The notes under the pieces: generated by a model | Database searches by the model: none | What the model saw: the letters and a program-made list of their open reading frames with translations, nothing else | Told to the model about the DNA's origin: nothing | Source: an uncultured Alphaproteobacteria bacterium | GTDB lineage: Bacteria > Pseudomonadota > Alphaproteobacteria > HIMB59 | Reading direction: 5' to 3' | Assembly: GCA_902575065.1 (NCBI GenBank) | Contig: CACGPU010000002.1 | Span: forward strand, 124,001 to 188,000 | Length of the DNA: 64,000 nucleotides | Part shown: piece by piece, positions 12,745 through 45,928 of the stretch | How the letters are laid out: every line of letters begins with the position of its first letter | Position numbering within the stretch: the first letter of the stretch is position 1 | Position numbers and translations under genes: made by a program

Positions 12745-14073
12745 TTGGCTAAAATTACATTTATAGGTGCGGGCAGCACTGTCTTCATGAAAAGTATTTT
12801 AGTAGATATTTTACTTGAGCCGGAATTAAACTCGTTTGATATTGCCTTACATGACATAGACCCTAAAAGATTAAAAACATCACAAATAGTAGCTGACAAT
12901 ATATGTAAGTCGCTAAAAGCTCCGGCATCAATAAAAACTACGTTAGATAGAAAAGAGGCACTAAAAGGGGCTGATTTTGTAATAGTTATGATACAGGTTG
13001 GAGGTTATGAACCCTCGACTGTTATTGATTTTGAAATACCAGCTAAGTATGGACTTCAACAAACAATTGCAGACACGCTAGGTATTGGAGGCATTATGCG
13101 CGGGTTGAGAACTGTTCCTGTTTTAGTTGAAATAGCCAAAGATATTATAGAACAATGCCCAAATGCATGGATGCTTCAATATGTAAATCCTATGGCAATC
13201 AATTGTCTAGCTCTCTCAGACTTTGTTCCTGAGCTTCAATATGTAGGACTTTGTCATTCTGTCCAAGGTACAGCTGCTGATTTAGCGAGAGACATAAATG
13301 AAGATTTAAGCAAAATTCAATATGAGTGCTCCGGAATAAATCACATGTCATTTTTTACAAAGTTTGAAAAAAAATTAGATAATGGTTTAACGGAAGATCT
13401 TTACCCTAAAATTTTTAAGGCAGGAGAGGAAGGGAATTTTGGCACCAATTGGGATGGTTGTTCAAATCACGTAAGATATGAAGTATTGAAAAGACTTGGT
13501 TATTTTGTTACGGAGTCATCGGAACATTTCGCAGAATATACACCTTGGTTTATTAAAAATCACCAAAAAGAATTAATTTCAAAATTTGATATTCCAGTTA
13601 ATGAATACATTCGTCGCTGTAAAAAACAAATTCAAGAATGGGAAATCCAAGAAAAAGAGTTAATTAACAAACCTCAAAATGAATATAAAAAATCTATCGA
13701 GTATGCTTCGAGAATAATTTTATCAATGGTAACTGGAAATCAAGACACTATTTATGGTAATCTTCTTAATAAAAATTTTATACCTAATTTACCTAACAAT
13801 TGCTGTGTGGAAGTTCCTTGTACTGTTCAAAAAAATATCCTCACCCCACAATCAGTACCACCATTGCCTATGCACTTAGCAAATCTAATTCAGACCAATA
13901 TTATTGTTCAACAATTAACAGTTGAGGCTCTTAAAACTCTTAAGAAAGAGAGTATTTACCATGCTGCCATGCTAGATCCACACACCGCTGGTGAACTTAA
14001 TTTAGATCAAATTTGGAAAATGGTTGATGAGCTACTTGACGCTCATGGTTCAATTTTACCTGTTTTCAAATGA
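12745..14073 (+). CDS. GH4 glycosidase, probable alpha-galactosidase (MelA-like)
   Basis: A 442-residue NAD+- and metal-dependent family GH4 enzyme that cleaves glycosides by an oxidation-elimination route. The N-terminal nucleotide-binding motif is ITFIGAGSTVF. The metal-binding Cys-His pair lies in GLCHSVQGT, the form found in MelA-type alpha-galactosidases, and YVNPMAINC is also present. The start is a TTG. It overlaps galT by four bases. In context it would release galactose for the Leloir enzymes that follow. Alpha-glucosidase activity cannot be excluded from sequence alone. Confidence 0.85.
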   Translation: MAKITFIGAGSTVFMKSILVDILLEPELNSFDIALHDIDPKRLKTSQIVADNICKSLKAPASIKTTLDRKEALKGADFVIVMIQVGGYEPSTVIDFEIPAKYGLQQTIADTLGIGGIMRGLRTVPVLVEIAKDIIEQCPNAWMLQYVNPMAINCLALSDFVPELQYVGLCHSVQGTAADLARDINEDLSKIQYECSGINHMSFFTKFEKKLDNGLTEDLYPKIFKAGEEGNFGTNWDGCSNHVRYEVLKRLGYFVTESSEHFAEYTPWFIKNHQKELISKFDIPVNEYIRRCKKQIQEWEIQEKELINKPQNEYKKSIEYASRIILSMVTGNQDTIYGNLLNKNFIPNLPNNCCVEVPCTVQKNILTPQSVPPLPMHLANLIQTNIIVQQLTVEALKTLKKESIYHAAMLDPHTAGELNLDQIWKMVDELLDAHGSILPVFK

Positions 14074-35579: not shown

Positions 35580-36103
35580 GTCCACCCCTGGCAAGTATCC
35601 AGAGCGCTGTTAAGGGCAGAACTGAGTCCATTAGCTTTCATTTCTATCTCTTGTTTTTCAAATCTGTTGAGCGGATCATTGATTGAAAATGAAATTTGTC
35701 CTCTTTTGGACAACAGGTCTTCCAGCTTGGAGAAGTGATGTTTATAAAAACTCATTAACTCCCAACGAACGTATCCATCGGCATTCAATCGGCTCGCGTT
35801 TGCGCCTTCATAAGATTGACCTGAGAGCTTCCAATCAAAAGTTTCACCGCTCATAACGTCAAAATCTTTGGGCTCAAATTCTCGATTGGTGTAAACTAAA
35901 CGAGCATCACAACTTAAGTTTGGATCGACAATAAAAATAATCATTTGATCTTGGTTTTCCAAACTAAAGACTAAGTCTAAGTTTTCTTCTTTAGCCTCCA
36001 TATGTATCCAATTATCAAATTCATGATGCATAGGGCTACCTTCTGCTTTTAGAGAACAATTAGTTAAAAAAACACTGATAAATAACAATAATAATGCTCT
36101 CAT
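35576..36103 (-). CDS. Secreted or lipid-anchored protein, channel-cluster family
   Basis: A 175-residue exported protein with an N-terminal hydrophobic stretch ending in LTNCS, which could be a signal peptide or a weak lipobox. The mature part has two cysteines, one central (NLSCDARLV) and one near the C-terminus (ALDTCQGW). The same layout, a tryptophan near the mature start, a central Cys and a final helix ending in Cys, recurs in the genes at 38604 and 40002. Function unknown. It is coupled to genes on both sides by start/stop overlaps. Confidence 0.65.
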   Translation of the reverse strand: MRALLLLFISVFLTNCSLKAEGSPMHHEFDNWIHMEAKEENLDLVFSLENQDQMIIFIVDPNLSCDARLVYTNREFEPKDFDVMSGETFDWKLSGQSYEGANASRLNADGYVRWELMSFYKHHFSKLEDLLSKRGQISFSINDPLNRFEKQEIEMKANGLSSALNSALDTCQGWT

Positions 36104-36423
36104 TACTTTTTTTCTCCTGGTTTGAAATGGCTCATTAAAAATTGCTGAGGAAAGGGCACTTTAAGATAAGAGGCATATTGCCTAGTAAAAAAGTAATTTA
36201 AGGGATACTGAATAAATTCTAGATTACCATCCTCAAGAGCATCAAGAGTGCTACGAGAATAATTCAAATGCTGCATCACATCCTCAACTGAAATATTATT
36301 TTCTTGTCTGATTTGCGCTAAACAACGCAAATACTCTTCAATATCTCTTAAGGATTGTGGTTCATTATTTTTATTAGAGGATAACTTTCTACCTAAAGTA
36401 GGAGTAATATAATTAGACTTCAT
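36103..36423 (-). CDS. Helix-turn-helix protein, RodZ-type HTH
   Basis: A 106-residue cytoplasmic protein. Residues ~29-95 match the HTH found at the N-terminus of RodZ and related proteins (IRQENNISVEDVMQHLNYSRSTLDALEDGNLEFIQYP, then TRQYASYLKVP). The membrane and periplasmic parts of RodZ are absent. It is likely a DNA-binding regulator of its own operon and of the divergent channel operon. Confidence 0.7.
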   Translation of the reverse strand: MKSNYITPTLGRKLSSNKNNEPQSLRDIEEYLRCLAQIRQENNISVEDVMQHLNYSRSTLDALEDGNLEFIQYPLNYFFTRQYASYLKVPFPQQFLMSHFKPGEKK

Positions 36424-36528: not shown

Positions 36529-36993
36529 ATGTCTAAAACAAAAGAAATTATCACCATTGAACATACTCTAAAAGAAGTTCTTAAAAATTTAAGTGATCAA
36601 GACATTCAAGATATCACTGGAAAGTCTAAGTCTTATATATACAAATGTGCTGACCCTGACGACAGTGATAGGAATATTCAATTTAGAACTGTCATACGTT
36701 TAGAGCATGCTATGCATAAAATTTACCAAAAAACTCCCTTCAGTAATTTTTTAAAAGATTATCTGGCAACCGCCCAACCTGAAAAACCTGCTAGTGAAAG
36801 CGAAGTACAATCAGAGATATTAGCAATAGGCGGAAGATTGGGAGATTTAATGGATGCTGTACGTGAGTCAATGGATGAGAAAAGTTCAGGGGGGTCAAAA
36901 ATAGTTCCTCATGAAAAAGAGAAAATTTACCAAGACATCCAAAAATTAGATGATCAGTTGAGTAAAATTAAGAGTGTGTTAAAATCACTCTAA
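36529..36993 (+). CDS. Putative HTH regulator with C-terminal coiled coil
   Basis: A 154-residue cytoplasmic protein. The first ~65 residues look like a helix-turn-helix (LSDQDIQDITGKSKSYIYKCADPDD, then FRTVIRLEHAM), as in phage-type or CII-like regulators. A polar linker follows, and the last ~35 residues form a probable coiled coil (IYQDIQKLDDQLSKIKSVLKSL). It lies one base upstream of the channel gene, so it may regulate or be co-made with it. Confidence 0.6.
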   Translation: MSKTKEIITIEHTLKEVLKNLSDQDIQDITGKSKSYIYKCADPDDSDRNIQFRTVIRLEHAMHKIYQKTPFSNFLKDYLATAQPEKPASESEVQSEILAIGGRLGDLMDAVRESMDEKSSGGSKIVPHEKEKIYQDIQKLDDQLSKIKSVLKSL

Positions 36994-36994
36994 T

Positions 36995-38347
36995 TTGTTT
37001 TTAAGGGGGATTATTTTAGGATTTTGGGTTTTTTTTTCCAGTGTTAGCTGGGGAGCAGAAATTTGTGAACGACTTTTAAAAAAAGACTTCAGAGAAACGT
37101 CTAACATAAGGCTTGCTTATAACGACAGCGGTGTAGTTCTTGAGCAAAATCAAGCTATTATCAACAAAAAACGCTTTGGTTCTTATGCTTTTAATACTCC
37201 TCTTAAGGCGGGAGACCGCATCTTAGCTGTTGATCAAAAACCTGTTGCTTCCGATGATGCTGATGCCTACTTGTATTTATCCAACCTACTAGAGACATCA
37301 GCAATGAGAGATCTCTCACTAACTGTTCAACATTTAGATGGGGAAGTGGAGATGGTTGACCTTAAGAGAATTCCTTATCTAGGTCACCCTATAGTTGAGG
37401 CAGATATAATATTAAATGATTTTGAGGTGATTCAACAAAGTAGTAAATCAAATTTGAATTTAGAGGTGAATTTGCAGTGGCAAAATGAAGACTTAATACA
37501 TAATTTTTTCAATTTAACAGAACTTGATAAATCACCTATTAAATGCATTTTTAGGAAGTCAGCAGAGCTTGAAAATATTTTACAAAAAATTTGGTATCCT
37601 ACATTTGAAACTACGCAAACAGGATCTTTTATAAATGATATAACCTTTAAAAGTTTACTTATCACAAACGATAAATCTGATCCTTTTAATTTTGTTCTCA
37701 AACAACAAATTAATTATCAAGTTACTAATTCCTCAGATTTTAAAAAATTTCCTTTTGATAATATTTCCACATCAGCTGATTTTATCTTCCAAGACATTGA
37801 TTTAAGCACGTCTTCGTTATACGACCCAGAAATTATTATGAAGGGTGGTAATGAAATTTTGTATGAATGGCAAATTAATGAGCACACTTTAAATTGCTGT
37901 GATTCTCAAATTTATGGACAAGGAGTGCTCCAAAAACTGGAATACAGTTTTGATCTTAATCGTAAATCCTTTTATTATATCCTAAAGATAATCTTACCTG
38001 TCATATTTTTGGTTTATTTATCATTTATGGTTTTCTGGATACCTTCACGTGAGCTAGAGTCTAAATTAGCTGTTAGTCTCGGATCTTTACTTACTTTAGT
38101 GGTATTTCAATTTACATTTGGAGATGATGTGCCGAAAATAAATGACTTCACCGTTTTGGACACAATGATATTAGCCTCATACTTATTTACGGGGATTTCA
38201 ACGTTTATCACCATTATAAATTATGTTTTTTACTCTCCATCAAAAGAGAGTACAACCCATAAAAATTATGACAAAAATCTTTTCTTTATTTTGTGTTTAA
38301 CCTATCCAGTTGTAACCACTTTATTTGCCCTAATCGTTTATAATTAG
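36995..38347 (+). CDS. Pentameric ligand-gated ion channel homologue with N-terminal PDZ-like domain
   Basis: A 450-residue exported membrane protein. A signal peptide (~1-20) is followed by a PDZ-like domain (~45-128, with LKAGDRILAVDQKPV). The next ~190 residues fit a Cys-loop-type extracellular domain: IWYPTFE (199-205) matches the conserved W-x-P loop, and KFPFDN (251-256) matches the FPFD Pro-loop. Four membrane helices follow: M1 ~327-349, M2 ~354-377 (LESKLAVSLGSLLTL, then DDVPK), M3 ~385-412, M4 ~429-449. The acidic residue at the -2' position of M2 resembles GLIC, suggesting cation flow. The start is a TTG right after the upstream stop. The ligand is unknown. Confidence 0.82.
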   Translation: MFLRGIILGFWVFFSSVSWGAEICERLLKKDFRETSNIRLAYNDSGVVLEQNQAIINKKRFGSYAFNTPLKAGDRILAVDQKPVASDDADAYLYLSNLLETSAMRDLSLTVQHLDGEVEMVDLKRIPYLGHPIVEADIILNDFEVIQQSSKSNLNLEVNLQWQNEDLIHNFFNLTELDKSPIKCIFRKSAELENILQKIWYPTFETTQTGSFINDITFKSLLITNDKSDPFNFVLKQQINYQVTNSSDFKKFPFDNISTSADFIFQDIDLSTSSLYDPEIIMKGGNEILYEWQINEHTLNCCDSQIYGQGVLQKLEYSFDLNRKSFYYILKIILPVIFLVYLSFMVFWIPSRELESKLAVSLGSLLTLVVFQFTFGDDVPKINDFTVLDTMILASYLFTGISTFITIINYVFYSPSKESTTHKNYDKNLFFILCLTYPVVTTLFALIVYN

Positions 38348-38425
38348 AAATATTTCAAAACTTATTTTATTGTCCAAAAAATTTTAATATATCCCCAATC
38401 TTTATTTTTAAAATTTAATATCTTT

Positions 38426-38607
38426 GTCTTCAGTGATAAGACCTCTCTCTTCCTTTCTGTTTTCTAGTTACTCCTTCTCTAAGTCATTTCCTACCAGGTT
38501 GATAAATGACAAACAAAAAAAAGAGAGAGGAAAAATTGAGGTGGTTTTTTCATGGTTCCTTTCTGTGCTACGGCTAATCCCATCCTCCTGTACATTAGCC
38601 GTGGTGC
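38426..38607 (+). other. Multi-hairpin intergenic segment, candidate structured RNA or leader
   Basis: Between the channel gene and the next ORF several complementary pairs occur in order: GTCTT/AAGAC (38426-38442); CCTCTCTCTT (38442-38451) with AAGAGAGAGG (38521-38530) enclosing GTCATTT/AAATGAC (38483-38510); and ACGGCTAAT (38570-38578) with ATTAGCCGT (38594-38602), extendable by G-U pairs. The last hairpin overlaps the proposed GTG start of the next gene. An 11-base direct repeat TTCCTTTCTGT lies at 38450 and 38556. No known RNA family was recognised. Confidence 0.4.
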
Positions 38608-39203
38608 AAAGAGGAAAATACTTAATACTAATAATTACCTCTCTATTTTTATTCTCCTTAAGTTCAGCGATGACTTTGGAAAAATTTCATGGTTGGAATA
38701 TTCAATTATTGGAGGAGGAAATGATTGCAATCGAGCGTAGTGGCGACGTTGAAGACTCAGAAAATATAATTTTTGTTATGACAAAAAATAATTGCGATCG
38801 TGTGCTTCAATTTTTTGAATTATTTACCTTATCAGTTCACCCTGATCTTACAAAATTATTAGATAAAGAAATTGAGCTCCAGGAAAATGGTCATTTAACA
38901 ACTGGAATGGTGCATGAAATATATCCATATAAGAACGGACACATGATTTTAATTGGGATGGGCTCTTACAATCATGAAACAATAAAAGAATATTATACTT
39001 TTCACAAACGCTCTCGCTTAACAGTCACTGATGTCCCATTTGAGGAACCAGTAGCTTTAAGAACATTCATAGACTTGCCAACAATTCAGTGGGCCATGCC
39101 TCAAGTAGAGGAGGCGATGGATAGAGCTCATAGGCACTGCAAAAAAATACCTGACCCCATTTCAGCTAGCCTAAAAAATTCTCAGAAAGGACTAAAAACA
39201 TGA
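38604..39203 (+). CDS. Secreted protein of unknown function, channel-cluster family
   Basis: The frame is open from 38424, but the first 60 codons are unlike a protein and lie in the hairpin-rich region. A GTG at 38604 gives about 199 residues with a signal peptide (KYLILIITSLFLFSLSSA). The start is not certain. The mature part begins with EKFHGWNIQLL, has a central Cys (NNCDRVLQFFEL) and a C-terminal helix ending in Cys (AMDRAHRHCKK). This layout resembles the proteins at 35576 and 40002. Its stop overlaps the next ATG. Confidence 0.65.
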   Translation: MQRGKYLILIITSLFLFSLSSAMTLEKFHGWNIQLLEEEMIAIERSGDVEDSENIIFVMTKNNCDRVLQFFELFTLSVHPDLTKLLDKEIELQENGHLTTGMVHEIYPYKNGHMILIGMGSYNHETIKEYYTFHKRSRLTVTDVPFEEPVALRTFIDLPTIQWAMPQVEEAMDRAHRHCKKIPDPISASLKNSQKGLKT

Positions 39204-39427
39204 CTTTTTTACATTTTTTAGCTGCAGTTATATTCTTGTATGTTGCAGATGAGCAAAATCACAGCCAACTTCATTTTGGTAAGAAGTGCTTTCAAAATGA
39301 AAACGGGGATATTATTTTTTCACACATCTGGGTAACACGCCCTTTTGATGAATTACCCGCTAACAAAGAGCAATGTACATTGCCAGAGGAGCCCGAGCCC
39401 CCGGTAGTTCCTAAATATGGAAAATAA
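39200..39427 (+). CDS. Small secreted protein of unknown function
   Basis: A 75-residue ORF whose ATG overlaps the previous stop (ATGA). It starts with a short hydrophobic segment (TFLHFLAAVIFLYVA), probably a signal peptide, and has two cysteines (KKCFQN, EQCTLP) followed by a proline- and glutamate-rich tail. No family was recognised. Translational coupling to the upstream secreted protein supports it as a real gene. Confidence 0.5.
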   Translation: MTFLHFLAAVIFLYVADEQNHSQLHFGKKCFQNENGDIIFSHIWVTRPFDELPANKEQCTLPEEPEPPVVPKYGK

Positions 39428-39456: not shown

Positions 39457-39546
39457 GCGGCCTTAGCTTAAATGGAAAAGCGTCCCACACTGAGATTTCT
39501 TGCGGGAAGGGAAGATGCAGGTTCGACCCCTGATCCGGCTGCACCA
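39457..39546 (+). tRNA. tRNA-like element, probably degenerate
   Basis: A 90-base segment starts with GCGGCC and ends with GGCTGC plus ACCA, giving a 6-bp acceptor with one G-U. It has a clean D arm (GCTT/AAGC with a GG-containing 8-base loop) and a T arm (CAGG, TTCGACC loop, CCTG). The middle does not fold into a normal anticodon arm: the best stem (TCCCAC with GCGGGA, one mismatch) leaves a 13-base loop, and two extra bases separate T stem and acceptor. No anticodon can be assigned. It is likely a decayed or disrupted tRNA gene. Confidence 0.4.
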
Positions 39547-39588
39547 AAACTATTTGGGGAGTTTTCAAAAAAACTTATAATACCTCTT

Positions 39589-40002
39589 ATGGGTCATAGC
39601 TATTTTATTGAATGTCAAAAATGTGATTACAAATCTGAGGAGATTACCATGGGTGTGGGCTTTTTATTTGGAAATATTGATGACATACTGCATGCACTGA
39701 GAGGTAATGATAAAAAAACAGTACAACTCCTAAAGCACCGTAAACAAATTCACACCCACTATTCACGAGGTTACTCTCTTTATCAGTGTAGTAAATGTCA
39801 CTCATTAGAAAATAAGTGTCATCTTACATTGTACAATCAACAAGGAGATCTTATATTTCAAACAGAGTCCTATTGTCGTTCATGTCAAAAGGCAAGAGAG
39901 TATATGCCAGAGGATAGTGATAATGAAACTATTCCAGATCTGTGCTGCCCTAAATGTCATCAGCAGGATCTTAAAGTTTTATTAGGAATACTTTGGGACT
40001 GA
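39589..40002 (+). CDS. Zinc-binding protein with several CxxC pairs
   Basis: The frame opens at 39472 inside the tRNA-like element, so the ATG at 39589 is chosen, giving 137 residues. CxxC pairs are seen at ECQKC, QCSKC, YCRSC and CPKC, with a conserved-looking middle containing HTHYSRGYSLYQC. This suggests two zinc ribbons. There is no signal peptide. The stop overlaps the next start in a TGATG. Function unknown. Confidence 0.65.
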   Translation: MGHSYFIECQKCDYKSEEITMGVGFLFGNIDDILHALRGNDKKTVQLLKHRKQIHTHYSRGYSLYQCSKCHSLENKCHLTLYNQQGDLIFQTESYCRSCQKAREYMPEDSDNETIPDLCCPKCHQQDLKVLLGILWD

Positions 40003-44027: not shown

Positions 44028-44951
44028 ATGAATATTTTAAGTCTTTTTGATGGTATTAGCTGCGCAAGAATAGCAATAGAAAAGTCAGGCTATAAAGTAA
44101 ATAAATATTTTTCTTCTGAACTTGACCTTAAGTGTTGTGAAGTCTCCAAAAAAAACTATCCAGACAACATTTTTTTAGGAGATGTAAATAAAATTGAGTC
44201 AAACGCCTTACCAAAGATTGATATTTTGATTGGTGGAAGCCCTTGCCAAGATATAAGCCATGCCTTTAAAGGCTCTGGTCTTGATGGTTTAAGATCATCC
44301 TTATTTTATAAATTTGTAGATTTAAAGAATAAATTAAATCCAAAATACTTTTTGTTAGAGAATGTCAAAAGCAAATGGAACACGATGATGGATGATGCCA
44401 TAGGTGTTGAAGGTGTAGAGATAAACTCCTGTTTTTTTTCAGCTCAATTTAGACCTCGTGTTTATTGGACTAATATTAATTTACCTAATATTCCAAATGA
44501 AATTTCAGATGATAAAATTGATGACATTCTTGATAAATCTGTAAAAGACAAAAAATATTTTTTTAATCCATCTATCGACAAGTATTTCAAAGACTCACCA
44601 TTATCTTTTTATAAAACACAAGGAGGCATATTAAAAGTAGGAGAGATTCCGAGAAAATTATTAAAGGATAATGAACGACAAAGAAGAGTATACTCTATTA
44701 AAAGCAAATCCCCAACTTTACTTGCTAGAGCTGATACGACTAAGATATTATATAAAAATAGAGTAAGAAAGCTTACCCCATTGGAATGTGAAAGGCTTCA
44801 AGGTATTCCAGATAATTTCACATCTGGTTTTAGTGATACAAGGAGGTATAAGATGATAGGTAATGCCTTTACCGTTCAAGTGATTTGCAAAATAATATCA
44901 AACATTGGAAAAAAAAATTCTAAACCTCGACAAGTAGGACTATTTGCTTGA
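44028..44951 (+). CDS. DNA (cytosine-5) methyltransferase 1 of a restriction-modification locus
   Basis: A 307-residue C5 methyltransferase. SAM-binding motif I is LSLFDGISCARIA; the catalytic Cys73 is in GGSPCQDIS (motif IV); ENV at 111 is motif VI; SAQFRPRVYW is motif VIII; and RKLTPLECERLQGIP and MIGNAFTV are motifs IX-X. The central recognition region is short. It methylates cytosine in a specific sequence, protecting DNA from the partner nuclease. Its stop overlaps the second methyltransferase start (TTGA). Confidence 0.92.
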   Translation: MNILSLFDGISCARIAIEKSGYKVNKYFSSELDLKCCEVSKKNYPDNIFLGDVNKIESNALPKIDILIGGSPCQDISHAFKGSGLDGLRSSLFYKFVDLKNKLNPKYFLLENVKSKWNTMMDDAIGVEGVEINSCFFSAQFRPRVYWTNINLPNIPNEISDDKIDDILDKSVKDKKYFFNPSIDKYFKDSPLSFYKTQGGILKVGEIPRKLLKDNERQRRVYSIKSKSPTLLARADTTKILYKNRVRKLTPLECERLQGIPDNFTSGFSDTRRYKMIGNAFTVQVICKIISNIGKKNSKPRQVGLFA

Positions 44952-45928
44952 AGTTCATAGATTTATTTTGTGGATTAGGTGGCTTTAGATACGCTCTAGA
45001 AAAACATGGAGCAAGGTGCGTATTAAGTAGTGACAATGATAAATATGTTGCTGAGTCATACTATTTGAATTTTAAAGATAATCCCTTAAATGATATTACT
45101 AAAATATTAGTAAAGGATATACCCGAATTTGATTGTTTAACAGCTGGTTTCCCTTGCCAACCTTTTAGTATAGCTGGTCATAGAAAGGGTTTTGAAGATG
45201 TAAGAGGCACATTATTTTTTGATATTGTTAGAATTTTAAATGAAAGAAAACCTGAATATTTCATTTTAGAGAATGTAAAAGGTTTAATTAATCACGATAA
45301 GGGCAGAACTTTTAAAACAATGCTTAATACTTTAGCTTCTAAAATTAACGGTGTGGAGAACTCATTCGTTCATAAAGACTGTCTAGATTATAATGTTTTT
45401 TGGAGTGTCCTTAATGCTTCTGACTATAACGTACCTCAGAACAGGGAAAGGGTTTTTATAGTCGGTTTTAGAAATAAGATTGTCAAATATCAGTTCCCAC
45501 AACAAGAAAGACTCAAAAACAAACTTGAAAATATTATTGAGGACAGACCTAATCAATTTAAACAAATCTCAGATTTATCTTATAAATACATAATTAAGTA
45601 TTTATCAGAGCATAATAAATATAATGAAATTAAAAATCTGAAATATCTAGTCGCTTCTGAGATCAGAAGGAGCAGGGTAAATTTCCGTTTTGACAACATA
45701 TCACCTTGTTTGACTACTAAAATGGGTACCGGGGGAAATAATGTGCCTTACTTAGTTAATCAGAAAAGGTTTTTTACTTTAAAGGAGTGTCTTTCTCTTC
45801 AATCTTTTCCCAAAAACTACAAGTTAGTTGATAATTATTCTGAGTCTTTAAAGCAACTAGGAAACACAGTTGTAATCAAAGTAGTAGAAAAAGTTTTTTC
45901 TAATATGATTAGATATTCTTCTACTTAG
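44948..45928 (+). CDS. DNA (cytosine-5) methyltransferase 2 of a restriction-modification locus
   Basis: A 326-residue C5 methyltransferase of the Dcm/HhaI class: motif I FIDLFCGLGGFRYAL, catalytic Cys70 in AGFPCQPFS, ENV at 108, VPQNRERVFIVG (motif VIII), the target-recognition region at ~180-270, and LGNTVV (motif X). It differs clearly from the upstream enzyme. Two C5 methyltransferases in tandem are typical when the recognition site is asymmetric and each strand needs its own enzyme. It converges with the nuclease-like genes with an 8-base overlap. Confidence 0.92.
   Translation: MKFIDLFCGLGGFRYALEKHGARCVLSSDNDKYVAESYYLNFKDNPLNDITKILVKDIPEFDCLTAGFPCQPFSIAGHRKGFEDVRGTLFFDIVRILNERKPEYFILENVKGLINHDKGRTFKTMLNTLASKINGVENSFVHKDCLDYNVFWSVLNASDYNVPQNRERVFIVGFRNKIVKYQFPQQERLKNKLENIIEDRPNQFKQISDLSYKYIIKYLSEHNKYNEIKNLKYLVASEIRRSRVNFRFDNISPCLTTKMGTGGNNVPYLVNQKRFFTLKECLSLQSFPKNYKLVDNYSESLKQLGNTVVIKVVEKVFSNMIRYSST

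Follow-up and report, generated by a model that had tools for sequence, protein, structure and literature searches.

A conserved tRNA-like element without a normal anticodon arm at the end of a patchily distributed gene block in HIMB59 Alphaproteobacteria

A 90-nt sequence with the ends of a tRNA and no normal anticodon arm lies at positions 39,457 to 39,546, on the plus strand, of a 64,000-nucleotide stretch of DNA (the window) from an uncultured HIMB59 alphaproteobacterium (G000), whose 1.25-Mb draft genome is 85% complete. The question that it raises is whether it is a decayed tRNA, a tRNA disrupted by an insertion or a tRNA-like RNA with another role, the three options that the first-pass annotation had left side by side. 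The element combines a cloverleaf-like architecture and an enlarged loop with purifying selection, compensatory changes and a constant genomic position, and normal tRNAs are encoded elsewhere. The last of the three options fits best, and we put at about one half the probability that the element is a small RNA gene in its own right, tRNA-like but non-decoding: a pseudo-tRNA recruited to another use. It would then be an old, strongly selected tRNA-derived RNA outside decoding, and since its genus has more than 50 genomes, the constraint on each of its parts can be read by comparison.

Architecture of the element

The acceptor stem pairs 39,457-39,463 with 39,536-39,542 (GCGGCCT with CGGCTGC), giving six pairs, among them G3:U70 with its G at 39,459, and a U-C mismatch at 7:66; the 3' strand runs on through the discriminator A into an encoded CCA (39,536-39,546), the element ending in ACCA. 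Between the two strands lie the D arm (39,466-39,481, GCTT..AAGC), a short stem in the anticodon position (TCCC at 39,483-39,486 and GGGA at 39,504-39,507) and the T arm (39,518-39,532, CAGG-TTCGACC-CCTG), all on the plus strand; the junction between T arm and acceptor carries a G-A mismatch and two extra bases (TC). The 90-base length, the D arm, the TTCGACC loop, the CCA end and the two extra bases are as first described.

Among the usual marks of a tRNA, the 7-bp acceptor (7:66 being U-C in 22 of 28 copies), the T arm with a TTCRA loop, the CCA end and the D arm (eroded in two diverged copies, those of G012 and G014) are present, and a 5-bp anticodon stem with a 7-nt loop is absent. The anticodon loop is replaced by an enlarged one of 17 nt (39,487-39,503, plus strand). 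Adding one more C-G pair, between positions 32 and 46, leaves the 13-base loop originally reported, a figure that depends on that pair; the pair is not C-G in four of nine aligned representatives, nor in the clade-A copies of G009, G154 and G157, so that in comparative terms the loop is about 17 nt. A second GGGA, at 39,509-39,512, is an alternative partner for TCCC. As judged from this architecture, the element cannot decode normally.

Standard annotation misses the element, which scores below tRNA cut-offs and lies within a predicted open reading frame. ARAGORN makes no tRNA call in the window, an Rfam scan finds no family over cut-off at 39,457-39,546, and the Rfam tRNA model, when aligned to the element, gives 17.5 bits against a cut-off of 29. 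The folding energy is ordinary and no better than that of shuffles (z -0.17); that the element is more than chance is established by its conservation and covariation, to which folding energy adds nothing.

Distribution among genomes

A covariance model (R1), built from nine copies in an alignment whose G002 row runs one base beyond CCA, was used to search the order and the class. It scores the element of G000 at 115 bits and finds it in at least 26 of the 52 genomes of the genus, at 83.7-116.7 bits among the matches listed, with ordinary 76-77-nt tRNA matches in the same run at no more than 45.9 bits among those listed. Among the matches listed for the 110 genomes of the sister family there is no element-like score, ordinary-length tRNA genes again reaching at most 45.9 bits; in a class-wide sample of 385 genomes, scores above 55 bits occur in members of the genus only, the others being 76-77-nt matches at about 54 bits.

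Synteny adds two diverged copies, which occupy the corresponding place in the surrounding gene block, past the end of a further gene, F24; R1 scores these copies at 29 bits (G014, E 7.6e-6) and 25.4 bits (G012, E 6.9e-5). Both have the acceptor GCUGCUG/CAGC(G or A)GC and the T arm ACAGG-UUCGAUU-CCUGU and end in an encoded ACCA; their D arm is reduced, and a loop of about 20 nt is closed by a short stem. The search for the same element in relatives, which had been proposed as a check, thus ends with carriers in at least 28 of 52 genomes, a minimum since the stricter filters of the model search can lose weak matches; 23 contigs overlapping relatives' genomes were kept out of the counts. The genome G147, with a fragment of the block's channel gene (F2, below) at a contig end, may be a further carrier.

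No copy was obtained from 24 of the 52 genomes, many of which are incomplete, and the element is therefore dispensable. The ten genomes of the genus that are at least 90% complete divide into five carriers (G140, G016, G004, G017, G157) and five without the element (G129, G133, G135, G142, G156). Two exact patterns matched no contig in IMG/VR and the element had no blastn match to phages and plasmids, so that a phage or plasmid origin was rejected as far as tested. The literature searched, in which subscription journals were mostly outside coverage, listed no report of the element.

Conservation and compensatory change

Among 22 clade-A loci (of 23, G154 being left out for its short upstream sequence) the element has a mean identity of 98% and 77 of its 90 columns never vary, as against 64% identity and 10 of 53 invariant positions at the four-fold synonymous sites of an upstream gene, F0, and 79% identity in the 29-nt spacer between gene block and element. 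The first-pass annotation had held that a lack of conservation would count against the element, which is instead conserved. Position by position, in 21 loci (without G154 and the 93-nt copy of G144), the mean frequency of the commonest base is 0.994 in the element and 0.989 in the loop alone, falling to 0.884 in the 30 nt upstream and 0.817 in the 30 nt downstream, with the drop at the 3' side coming within four bases past CCA. The odd loop is constrained as much as the stems. Between G016 and G004 the element is identical, as are 22 of the 28 ordinary tRNA kinds that they share; it is therefore held about as tightly as working tRNAs.

The changes that do occur respect the fold. In nine distinct copies, 3 of 19 pairs have changed on both sides with pairing kept, one each in the D, anticodon-position and T stems, compared with a mean of 1.3 in shuffles, a control inflated by relatedness, and zero when partners were slid. 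Thus a U-A pair of the D arm in clade A is C-G in clade B, an A-U pair of the T arm becomes U-A, and U27-A in the anticodon-position stem becomes U-G and C-G across clades.

Six of the seven acceptor pairs are invariant in the nine-copy set. Across all 28 copies, pair 3:70 takes four standard forms (G-U in 25; A-U, U-G and U-A in one each) and 6:67 is C-G in 26 and U-A in two; pairing is kept throughout, and the acceptor is therefore maintained as a helix, with the alanine signal lost in three copies. The presence of G3:U70 in 25 of 28 suggests alanine charging, which is not a family-wide need because the pair is missing from G144, G012 and G014; its loss and the varying discriminator (A in 22, G in six) argue against a strict aminoacylation identity. 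The G144 copy (L105, 1501-1593), which has A3:U70, is unusual in other ways as well: it is 93 nt long, its D arm is enlarged and 7:66 is restored to a G-C pair.

Relation to tRNA and tmRNA

The relatives G004 and G016 have 34 and 32 ARAGORN tRNA calls, respectively, which together serve all 20 amino acids; Glu is missing from the first list and Lys from the second, both drafts being 94% complete, and Ala(GGC), Ala(TGC) and Gly(TCC) are present in both. The full set of normal tRNAs that the first-pass annotation had thought telling does exist in these relatives, and the element RNA is therefore extra. It is close to none of the 33 resident tRNA kinds, the best full-length match having about 61 identities and many gaps, and a recent copy of a resident tRNA was rejected. 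So was the idea that an integrated element had left it behind as a tRNA fragment, for want of a parent among the 33 kinds and of a repeated 3' end in the window. A sequence that does look like such a remnant is found in G016, where ARAGORN calls a second tRNA-Cys (L038, G016:C3, 11986-12059, minus strand) about 1.9 kb from the real one (13904-13977); its 3' half is that of the real gene, and it is probably a fragment.

With no usable anticodon and scores below tRNA cut-offs, the element could be taken for a decaying pseudogene. Decay should not, however, leave 77 of 90 columns without variation across 22 loci in which 10 of 53 four-fold sites are invariant, and mainly for this reason, together with the compensatory changes, the earlier suggestion of a decayed tRNA is contradicted and has very little probability left. 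It is similarly improbable that the element serves as a decoding tRNA, its extra bases being either tolerated or taken out. The idea draws on the G018 copy, which, in a by-eye reading with 13 nt between positions 40 and 41 set aside, yields a 76-nt cloverleaf in which a 5-bp stem (CCCGG/CCGGG) closes the loop GTTCCAA (UCC). ARAGORN, in its intron mode only, calls just two copies, as tRNA-Phe(aaa) in G018 and tRNA-Trp(cca) in G002, which conflict with each other. Against decoding, no reading found for clade A offers an anticodon in a 7-nt loop with U33. Relatives encode tRNA-Gly(TCC) and every other kind, and the element resembles none of the 33 resident kinds. The G018 reading does suggest that the element arose from a tRNA that had gained a small insertion, so the idea of a tRNA disrupted by an insertion may describe where the element came from; the insertion is old and has been kept.

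G3:U70 is a trait of tmRNA too. The element shares a tRNA-like end with CCA with the alphaproteobacterial (permuted) tmRNA (RF01849), and the diverged G012 and G014 copies have weak, sub-threshold Rfam tmRNA scores. It differs in having a D arm, and in seven of eight genomes tested the alphaproteobacterial tmRNA is a separate gene over cut-off, the exception being G000, 85% complete. No tag reading frame was identified in the element. On the strength of the separate genes, a tmRNA or a piece of one was rejected.

The gene block and its insertion site

The element always terminates the same block of genes, whose presence is patchy. In the regions compared the order is F3, on the opposite strand, then F1, F2, F0, F6 and the element. 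In the window F3 (36,103-36,423, minus strand) encodes a helix-turn-helix (HTH) protein (Pfam HTH_25) and F1 (36,529-36,993, plus strand) a 154-aa protein, with a weak PADLOC capH match (15.7 bits) that is not relied on. F2 (36,995-38,347, plus strand) encodes a homologue of pentameric ligand-gated ion channels, with Neur_chan_memb over cut-off at 36.4 bits; its N-terminus may include a PDZ-like part (PDZ below cut-off), and among solved structures it is closest to a proton-gated channel (GLIC entries, 1.2e-14). F0 (38,424-39,203, plus strand) and the 75-aa F6 (39,200-39,427, plus strand), which stops 29 nt before the element, are predicted by eye to be secreted. Defence-system labels for the block were rejected, the PADLOC matches being weak.

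Close homologues of F0 (at least 47% identity) and of F2 (at least 50%) occur in exactly the 26 model-found carriers, and G012 and G014 have distant ones. In five diverged carriers F24 is added to the block; it has homologues in five of 162 genomes of the order and one weak match (7e-4, inside a 569-aa frame) in 385 genomes of the class, and on these counts a wider family reached through F24 was rejected.

Downstream of the element the content differs, with a zinc-ribbon-like gene in 18 of 26 carriers; in others, different genes follow or the core gene F18 comes next. Seven of the 12 element-free regions fetched (G142, G156, G013, G152, G146, G151, G137) have F8 and F18 side by side with no gene between; of the rest, G145, G160 and G129 have other genes and the contigs of G130 and G005 end nearby. 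In G009 the block fills the F8-F18 gap, its right junction lying no more than about 6 nt from CCA. F18 is at least 93% identical to that of G000 in clade-A carriers where it was found, 81-84% in the three B carriers and 67% in G012, with no match in G014, G015 and G148; each identity tier also includes genomes without the element. Distribution and F18 tiers fit long vertical keeping with many losses, and exchange between species may also be part of the element's history.

Flanking reading frames

The zinc-ribbon-like gene (F13, 39,589-40,002, plus strand; CxxC pairs, no Pfam family over cut-off) has an open frame that extends back to an ATG at 39,472, in the D loop at element position 16. In clade A the frame is open to this D-loop ATG, G144 excepted, where only TTG codons precede the element; the residues before the next zinc-ribbon ATG look similar between clades (FSKKLIIPL). 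The gene may start inside the element in clade A (39,472-39,588), and in G002 and G139 there is an ATG just after the element. On the other side, the stop codon of F24 lies inside the element in all five F24 genomes (G002, G139, G018, G012, G014). Excision of an RNA from such a transcript could affect both neighbouring genes.

Coding does not explain the conservation, because the element is intact where the zinc-ribbon frame is broken (G141) and where no such start was found (G143 and G011); it is likewise intact in the eight of 26 model-found carriers that lack the gene. Scans for a promoter-like site directly before the element and for a terminator after it stayed at or below shuffle level.

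Alternative roles of the position

Two explanations would draw the conservation from where the element lies. Islands often use the 3' ends of tRNAs, and the element might be an attachment site, the end of a mobile block kept through recognition by a recombinase. The empty F8-F18 sites in seven of 12 element-free regions, the G009 junction about 6 nt from CCA and the hypervariable downstream content would all suit such a boundary. Yet the window holds no second copy of the 3' end at up to three mismatches, the block and island proteins scanned include no integrase, the printed empty sites show no tRNA-like end, and all 90 nt are conserved, D arm and loop included, with compensatory changes, neither of which a crossover site needs; this explanation is quite unlikely.

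The other, also unlikely, is that the tRNA-like fold shows where a polycistronic transcript is to be cut. A cut at the 5' end would deprive the F24 message of the diverged clades of its stop, excision would remove the zinc-ribbon start, and maturation would so control the flanking genes. In its favour are the five F24 stops inside the element, the position of the only upstream in-frame ATG covering FSKKLIIPL at 39,472 in clade A (except G144), and the lack of a terminator-like site between. Clade A, however, has no F24, and the element is invariant where the zinc-ribbon gene is missing or broken; punctuation alone, moreover, would not fix the sequence of the loop. A cis role on the zinc-ribbon gene, which the first-pass annotation had entertained, is not required, because conservation stops at CCA, the downstream content differs and the element outlasts loss of the gene; as the main role it finds no support.

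A candidate non-decoding RNA and its possible partners

If the element is a pseudo-tRNA put to other use, it would stand last in a block, mobile or patchily kept, whose other genes encode an HTH regulator, secreted proteins and a GLIC-like ion channel, and would be transcribed with that block. RNase P and 3' trimming would release the RNA at its encoded CCA, the tRNA-like body giving stability and perhaps charging, and the conserved open loop would present a working surface to an RNA or protein partner acting in trans. One 14-mer complementary to the loop, sought in the element's own genome with up to one mismatch, matched only the element itself, and an antisense target for the loop was rejected on this result.

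The nearest described case is the Bacillus cereus tRNA-Other, which its report (PMC3399842) presents as a pseudo-tRNA outside translation, found beside an island in a narrow group, and for which a structural role within a regulatory RNA has been proposed. The element is likewise tRNA-like and found beside an island in a narrow group, and it is conserved and has no usable anticodon arm. The two differ in that tRNA-Other has a Trp anticodon and has been studied by experiment, whereas the element has no anticodon and is known from sequence. A departure from the 76-nt cloverleaf is shared with tRNA-Sec, allo-tRNA and mitochondrial tRNAs, but these, as described in PMC7609411, keep their anticodon loop for decoding, the very part that the element has replaced.

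More speculatively, and with low odds, the block could be a new patchy multi-gene system in which the RNA, charged or uncharged, is the working nucleic-acid part alongside the HTH regulator, the secreted proteins and the GLIC-like channel with its N-terminal addition, the fixed open loop of the RNA serving as sensor, bait or guide. We know of no precedent for a tRNA-derived RNA as a component of a membrane-channel system in bacteria; were the link to the ion-channel block functional, it would point to tRNA-like RNA being put to a new use in ocean bacteria. Further along in G017 there is an F2 paralogue, accompanied by an F1-like gene on the opposite strand. Within the window, at 44,028-45,928, neighbouring ORFs of 307 and 326 aa group together, the first being a C-5 cytosine methylase; they are possibly a tandem pair in a variable island.
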